The notes beneath the pieces were generated by a model that made no database searches, was not told the DNA's origin, and worked only from the letters and a program-made list of their open reading frames with translations. From a bacterium (GTDB taxonomy: Bacteria; Fidelibacterota; UBA8477; JABMPR01): a stretch of 49,180 nt of DNA. Made by a program: the position numbers and the translations under genes. Below, piece after piece: positions 2,010 through 44,449 of this stretch. Location: the NCBI GenBank assembly GCA_013202895.1, contig JABMPR010000048.1, positions 1-49,180 of the forward strand, given 5' to 3'. The first letter of the stretch is position 1; each line of letters begins with the position of its first letter.

Positions 2010-2600
2010 ATGAATTATCAAATCATCAATGATAAACCGACCTTGAGTGTCAGATCTCGCGAGGAGTGGCGGCTTTGGCTTTCAGAAAATCACAATGACC
2101 ATGATCAAATGTGGCTCATTATCTACAAAAAGCACACGGGAAAGCAAATAATGACCAAAACTGAGGCAATGGACGAAGCCATCTGTTTTGGCTGGATTGA
2201 TAGCCTGGTCAAAGGCATCGATGATGAAAAGTATATGCAGAAATTCACACCGCGGAAACCAGATAGTCAATGGTCTGAGGTGAATAAGAGTCGAGTTGCA
2301 CAGCTCGAAGCACAGGGTCTGATTGAACCTGCCGGAAAAGCATTGATTGAGCATGCCAGAGAGACAGGAGAGTGGTTTGTAACCCGGAGCACCCCTAAAA
2401 ACATTGAGATGTCACCGGGTTTGACAAAGGCACTTGGTAAATCATCTGGGGCGAAGGAAAGATGGGATACACTTCCTGCTTCTCACAGACGAAAATATCT
2501 GCAATGGATTAGCCAGGCAAAACGTGAGGCTACCAAACAAAACCGAATCAAAAAAACCATAAAAATGCTTACTTCGGGGCAATCGCCAAGTATGTTGTAA
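2010..2600 (+). CDS. YdeI/OmdA (OmpD-associated) family protein
   Basis: Cytoplasmic 196-residue protein of the YdeI/OmpD-associated family. Members are often labelled bacteriocin-protection proteins, but their biochemistry is poorly known. Recognisable elements are the N-terminal block SREEWRLWLSENH, the central AICFGWIDSLVKGID and KFTPRKPDSQWSEVNKSRV segments, and the C-terminal helical OmdA tail (LPASHRRKYLQWISQAKREA, then a Lys-rich helix). Length is typical. AGGA lies 5-6 bp before the ATG. It is divergent from xth and 20 bp upstream of the amidase gene. A second OmdA-tail protein, fused to DUF1801 and interrupted, lies at 43.9 kb. Confidence 0.88.
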   Translation: MNYQIINDKPTLSVRSREEWRLWLSENHNDHDQMWLIIYKKHTGKQIMTKTEAMDEAICFGWIDSLVKGIDDEKYMQKFTPRKPDSQWSEVNKSRVAQLEAQGLIEPAGKALIEHARETGEWFVTRSTPKNIEMSPGLTKALGKSSGAKERWDTLPASHRRKYLQWISQAKREATKQNRIKKTIKMLTSGQSPSML

Positions 2601-28583: not shown

Positions 28584-29389
28584 TTGAGTAAACAAAAAAA
28601 CGATAGGGCGCTTCGTTTTTATAATGAGGTTCTGGGATTGGATAGGCTGCATTATGGGATGTGGGAATCCGGGGATGAGCTGACATTTGCCAAATTGCGC
28701 GAGGCCCAGATCAGATATGAAGAATTCCTGGTGAATCATATTCCCCATGGTGTCAAGCGTGTACTGGATGTGGGTTGTGGAACGGGAATGCTGGTAAAAA
28801 AACTGCTCGACAATGGATATAACGTCGAAGGACTATCACCAGATATCAACCAGAAGCGCAACTTTGCCGAAAATATTAACGCCCCTTTTCACCATCTCGG
28901 TTTTGAAGAGTTTACAGCAAGTGAGCGATATGATTGTCTAATAATGAGTGAGTCTGCCCAGTACATCAACATGGAAAAATTATTTCAAAATGCCAGACAG
29001 GCTCTCAAACAAGACGGCTATTTAATGATCTGTGATTATTTTGTTTTCAAGAATGCTACTGGAGAGAAATCAGCAAAAGCGGCCATGTGTTCGAAGCTTT
29101 TTACCGCTTGTTTGAGAAGTATAACTTCAGCATAATCGCAGCAGAAGATATAACCCCGAGAATTACGCCAACCCTTGATATGGGTAAGGACATTGCGGAT
29201 AGAGTTCTGATTGCCCTGGAGATCGGAACGGAAAAATTCAGGAATAAACACCCCTTGATCACAAGAATGTTTTTCAGGCTGTTTAAGAAAAAAATTGAGA
29301 AAGCAAAACTTCAAAGTGAATTGTTGGATTCGAAGAACTTTATGGATAATAAATCCTACAACTTTTTCCTGCTTCAAAACAAAGGATAA
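28584..29389 (+). pseudogene. SAM methyltransferase, frameshifted by a one-base deletion
   Basis: Two overlapping frames make one methyltransferase. The first (TTG at 28584, GGGAGG 5 bp upstream, running to a stop at 29135) has motif I RVLDVGCGTGMLVKKLL, the acidic loop VEGLSPD and SAQYINMEKLFQNARQALKQ. Its native reading ends near AAAAGC at 29075-29080. The continuation in the next frame (SGHVFEAFYRLFEKYNFSII ... to 29389) supplies the rest of the domain. Adding one A to the AAAA run would give ...EKSAKSGHVFEAFYR and about 268 residues. It is either a sequencing/assembly indel, a recent mutation or, less likely, slippage. Confidence 0.8.
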
Positions 29390-43855: not shown

Positions 43856-44449
43856 ATGATCAGAGCAAAGACAGTTGATGAATATATTCAAAATCAATCC
43901 AGTTGGGCTGCCGAACTAAAGCGCTTAAGAACTATTTTTCTGGATTTGGGTCTTGAGGAAACTGTTAAATGGGGCGGACCAGTATATACCTTTAATAACA
44001 AGAATATAGTTGGCTTGGGTGGATTTAAGGCCTTTGTCAGCTTGTGGTATTATCAGGGAGCGCTGCTCAAGGATAAACAGAAACTATTGGTGAATGCCCA
44101 GGAGGGTGTAACCAAAGCACTTCGACAAATGCGATTTAGGAGTATTAAAGAAATCGATGATTCGATCATTAAAGCATACACAGCAGAAGCGATAAATAAT
44201 CAAAAACAAGGACAAGTAATAAAGGTCGATCGACGTAAACCGTTGACAATTCCTCCAGAATTGCAGGCTTCATTCAAGAAGACTGAGAAATTAAAGCAAG
44301 CGTTTGATATATTGAGTTTAGCGAAACGTCGTGAATTCACAGAATAAATTCTCTCTGCAAAACGTATCGAAACAAAAATCAAACGCTTGGAAAAAATAAT
44401 CCCCATGATCCTCGATGGAGTGGGGCTCTCTGATAAGTACCGACCTTAA
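43856..44449 (+). pseudogene. DUF1801-YdeI/OmdA fusion with an in-frame stop
   Basis: The upstream frame (43856-44347) encodes a DUF1801 domain (MIRAKTVDEYIQNQSSWAAE ... ETVKWGGPVYTFNNKNIVGL, FVSLWYYQGALLKDKQK) and the beginning of an OmdA tail ending KRREFTE. Just past TAA at 44345-44347 the same frame continues ILSAKRIETKIKRLEKIIPM and DGVGLSDKYRP to a second stop at 44447-44449, exactly the expected OmdA tail. Family sequences usually read EF(T/x)EYI.SAKR.ETK at this join, so a Tyr codon (TAT/TAC) appears to have become TAA. It is interrupted or misread; the full length would be 197 residues. Confidence 0.85.

Follow-up and report, generated by a model that had tools for sequence, protein, structure and literature searches.

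An apparently ordinary nonsense substitution in an accessory DUF1801-OmdA gene of a Neomarinimicrobiota metagenome-assembled genome

An in-frame TAA codon stands inside a DUF1801-OmdA gene in the stretch of DNA analysed here (49,180 nucleotides, hereafter the window), and the reading frame continues beyond it. The question raised by this locus is whether the codon ends a protein in the living organism, is translated as sense, or was introduced into the draft sequence.

A nonsense codon in an otherwise intact gene

The gene with both of its parts spans positions 43856-44449 of the forward strand, corresponding to a full-length protein of 197 aa. As written, the ORF (43856-44347, 163 aa) contains a complete DUF1801 domain and the first half of an OmdA domain, and it is closed by TAA in place of residue 164 (44345-44347). 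The DUF1801 domain (PF08818; 43904-44194) was matched in full at 69.6 bits and, in the truncated ORF, at 68.7 bits, well above the curated cut-off of 27.2 bits. The stop lies inside the OmdA domain (PF13376; 44243-44419), which covers residues 130-188 of the read-through protein and model positions 2-60 of 60. The score of this domain was 21.8 bits in the ORF as written, below the curated cut-off of 25.6 bits, and 24.5 bits in the tail after the stop, whereas the read-through protein reached 59.1 bits.

The same frame resumes straight after the TAA, so that a frameshift at 44345-44347 was ruled out. It continues for 33 sense codons (44348-44446), which encode the remainder of OmdA, to a second TAA (44447-44449), where the full-length gene would be expected to end. 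In 79 of 80 loci from named genomes, the end of the relative's gene lay 0-3 codons from this position; the sole exception was locus L058, whose own TAA falls just within the matched stretch. The tail was coding-like, with a codon score of 0.31 bits per codon compared with 0.20 in the body of the gene and -0.44 in each of the other two frames of the plus strand. These results bear out the initial annotation, which had described a TAA within a DUF1801-OmdA gene, the OmdA tail downstream in the same frame, and a single substitution without a frameshift.

In domain order, length, and the residues around the site, the protein resembles the DUF1801-OmdA (YdeI/OmpD-associated) family defined by PF08818 and PF13376, from which it differs by the in-frame TAA at residue 164. 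NCBIfam assigned no family to it, and a search of solved structures returned no match at E ≤ 1. A second OmdA-domain protein, with a score of 64.2 bits and without a DUF1801 match, is encoded on the same contig at window positions 2010-2600. The initial annotation had also counted a second lesion in the window without naming it; this probably corresponds to a probable one-base frameshift at about 29075-29090 in an SAM methyltransferase gene (28584-29389), near an AAAA run at 29075-29078.

The TAA codon was then placed in a wide alignment of 93 rows, composed of 13 loci from the search of relatives and the best 80 of 231 loci from named genomes. A letter was present at the stop column in 92 rows, including the query, and L015 had a gap there. 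The 91 homologue rows (88 distinct, as three named rows duplicate three others) had 64 Tyr, 25 His, 1 Leu, and 1 Asn at this column, and a stop was found in none of them, with the named-genome loci again limited to the best 80 of 231. Six congeneric orthologues, 61-66% identical to the query protein, carried TAT (five) or CAT (one) and no stop at the site, and the best-segment identity to the 80 named relatives kept was 46-65%. The earlier statement that the stop replaces Tyr therefore holds within the genus, but farther out His is common (25/91). With coding sequence on both sides of the stop and uninterrupted orthologues at the site, the gene has the marks of a nonsense lesion and is intact apart from it. 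A sense codon, most likely for Tyr, would have been converted to TAA by one substitution; as written, ribosomes would end at the TAA and release a protein of 163 aa with the whole of DUF1801 and half of OmdA.

The alignment to DUF1801/OmdA homologues, which the initial annotation had proposed as a check, showed no row ending at the column (0/91). Homologues with natural ends there, which would have counted against that annotation, were thus absent from these rows, and a natural C-terminus at the TAA was ruled out. A short form kept by selection, in which half of OmdA is enough, would have the complete DUF1801 domain within it, but its discarded tail still fits the OmdA consensus, and we regard this explanation as very improbable.

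A close orthologue was found in 7 of the 19 genomes of the genus, the query genome included. In genome G006 the orthologue (L009, G006:C27) is interrupted elsewhere, by an in-frame TAA at codon 12, a position filled by Gln or some other residue in the remaining orthologues; its next ATG occurs only at codon 45.

Other stops, probably stray, in the draft genome

The window belongs to a draft metagenome-assembled genome of 3.59 Mb, made up of 362 contigs and estimated at 87.74% completeness. A codon-score scan was applied to 467.5 kb of it (the window and 40 further stretches, 13% of the genome), and the candidates were then checked by homology. The scan listed 18 sites in this genome, 10 in G012, and 11 in the control genome G002, which by eye were mostly neighbouring genes in one frame or non-coding frames. 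Homology checks, which covered sites of the query draft and of G002, supported four sites in the query draft (the OmdA stop at 44345, L122 at 2499, L138 at 12137, and L151 at 13748) and one in G002 (L209 at 7370); L197 at 11207 and L203 at 19487 in G002 and L135 at 8079 in the query draft stayed as mere candidates, and L206 at 3557 in G002 lies at a CxxC and is taken up below. The 467.5 kb thus contained three further nonsense codons present in this draft only, with TAA, TGA, and TAG each occurring once and at unrelated residues.

The TAA (L122, G000:C95, 2499-2501) interrupts the triosephosphate isomerase (TIM) gene, the only match to this enzyme in the genome. The site is occupied by Asp or Glu in about 18-19 loci of relatives, and none of the other 20 TIM loci across the genus (19 genomes) contained a stop. 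This stop removes the last 37 residues of the enzyme, a loss that a cell should scarcely, if at all, survive. The TGA (L138, G000:C45, 12137-12139) interrupts CcmF; 17 orthologues, as read, had 15 Gly and 2 Asp at the site, and the 17 other full-length loci of the genus were free of stops. Of the 18 other congeners, 17 have an uninterrupted CcmF, and from this it appears to be indispensable. The TAG (L151, G000:C245, 13748-13750, minus strand) interrupts a flippase-like membrane protein whose orthologue in G001, at 64% identity, is open throughout and has ACT at the site.

The stops in TIM and CcmF would be lesions comparable to that in OmdA but in genes that should not be losable, which is established for TIM and likely for CcmF. 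Living cells should not retain such lesions, and the draft consensus therefore probably holds stray stops. A viable cell with its only TIM truncated is hard to credit, suggesting that some stops of the draft are probably not those of the living genotype. The control genome G002 also carries a nonsense codon (a TAG within a PDDEXK_3 gene), so the lesion rate of the query draft is not demonstrably unusual.

An all-against-all tblastn comparison of the sampled stretches was swamped by shadow frames, and CcmF was its only clear case. The CcmF search also returned extra stop-bearing matches at four loci of relatives; in the three that were checked (L272, L273, and L278), the stops precede the ccmC start. 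As to the possible base changes, a G to T substitution could account for the stops in both TIM (GAA or GAG to a TAA/TAG-type codon) and CcmF (from GGA), and an ancestral TAC would imply C to A in OmdA. No mutational signature is claimed, since three events are too few and the orthologues carry TAT.

Possible error, strain variant, or loss of an accessory gene

On the sequence comparisons above, the lesion is best described as what appears to be an ordinary nonsense substitution, not a recoded codon, in an accessory DUF1801-OmdA gene of this Neomarinimicrobiota genome assembled from a metagenome, and the OmdA stop would be one of several stray stops in the draft. It shares with the ordinary nonsense lesions of draft genomes, whether errors or pseudogenes, a single substitution, intact flanks, intact relatives, and the company of other such stops, and we identified no difference from them.

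We consider it the likelier explanation, with some reserve, that the living population carries another base here and that the TAA entered the draft either through a consensus error or because the assembler settled on a rare strain variant. A wrong or unrepresentative base is favoured because stops found in this draft alone also interrupt its only TIM gene and its CcmF gene. The 33 codons downstream of the OmdA stop, undecayed by both domain score and codon score, are likewise in its favour. Two of the three causes put forward by the initial annotation, sequence error and population variation, fit this picture, whereas the third, readthrough of the stop, was not supported, as described below.

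The main alternative, less probable but still to be taken seriously, is a true and recent null or truncating allele of a dispensable gene, from which the cell would make either no protein or one of 163 aa in which DUF1801 is complete. The patchy presence of the gene (7/19 congeneric genomes) and the independent TAA at codon 12 of the G006 orthologue, whose next ATG comes at codon 45, suit genuine recurrent loss and count against an error in the draft, and the completeness of DUF1801 ahead of the stop also agrees with a truncating allele. However, the gene shows no further decay, and the stops in the draft's only TIM and in CcmF favour a shared cause that is not biological. An erroneous or unrepresentative base thus remains our preferred reading. 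As a coding feature the OmdA stop carries little weight, but in a draft with further stops in its only TIM gene and in CcmF it cautions against inferring recoded codons from metagenome assemblies at draft stage.

The OmdA stop compared with recoded stop codons

Translation of the TAA by readthrough or an ochre suppressor, yielding the full protein of 197 aa, was also considered. The OmdA gene has in common with stop-codon recoding (selenocysteine, suppressor readthrough, or code reassignment) a frame that is open beyond the stop, intact and coding-like, and TAA also interrupts TIM, where relatives have Asp or Glu. In recoding, a stop would be expected at the same place in relatives, but here it was found in none of the six congeneric orthologues and none of the 91 homologue rows. 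The codons and residues are also inconsistent across genes: the two TAA sites particular to this draft replace different residues (Tyr in one, Glu or Asp in the other), and TGA and TAG interrupt other genes of the draft too.

The machinery of termination was also represented in the draft. Release factors were not lost: RF1 (prfA model, 482.8 bits) and RF2 (prfB model, 503.4 bits) were both above cut-off as profile matches, and TAA was the commonest stop, ending 137 of 272 long ORFs in the sampled genome. Reassignment of TAA to Tyr was ruled out by these TAA ends, by the presence of both release factors, and by the TIM TAA at a Glu/Asp site. ARAGORN found no UUA-anticodon or other suppressor tRNA in the window and the 40 stretches (467.5 kb), in an incomplete tRNA set. 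Throughout the genome, the UUA-anticodon pattern occurred at 24 sites, none of them a tRNA, and a reversed control pattern occurred an equal number of times. The tRNA genes recovered from the draft number only 9, of which ARAGORN typed 8, and these are too few to exclude a suppressor.

Readthrough or recoding of the OmdA TAA is not supported by these comparisons, because the stop is unshared, RF1 and RF2 are present, all three stop codons interrupt genes of the draft, and no tRNA with a UUA anticodon was found in the incomplete tRNA set; we judge it highly unlikely. Equally doubtful is the broader proposal of some degree of TAA tolerance or suppression in this species, by which OmdA and TIM would still be made at full length. 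Such suppression, if real, would be most unexpected for a free-living marine bacterium.

The genus itself contains a stop that does look recoded. In secreted Omp28-type proteins, some of which are about 880-910 aa long, an in-frame TGA stands at the first cysteine position of a CxxC-type motif (FTNAG-TGA-PSCGPAG and variants). Of 20 fetched loci, 17, belonging to 15 genomes, had TGA in the same motif. Two of these loci are in the query genome (L120, G000:C139, 8615-8617, minus strand; and L298, G000:C317), and the others (L280-L293 and L297) are in 14 other genomes. A PF11551 match of 52.7 bits follows the TGA, and the fold predicted downstream of the draft's own Omp28-type TGA is stable at -20.5 kcal/mol, as calculated for a single sequence. 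A tRNA-Sec was detected above the Rfam cut-off in 17 of the 19 genomes, the two without it being the query draft and G010. These features suggest that the Omp28-type TGA proteins are a probable selenoprotein family of the genus. In the literature collection searched, no paper mentioned selenoproteins together with Omp28, and none mentioned them together with Neomarinimicrobiota. The conserved Omp28-type TGA has the appearance expected of a recoded stop, to which the OmdA TAA bears no resemblance, giving a clean contrast within one genus.

Another TGA of this kind was observed in genome G002 (L206, C12, 3557-3559, minus strand), at the first CxxC position of a Thioredoxin_2-type protein (YEFYAKW-TGA-GSC). 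A PF13098 match spans this TGA, which may encode selenocysteine, and the genus would thereby have a second candidate selenoprotein.
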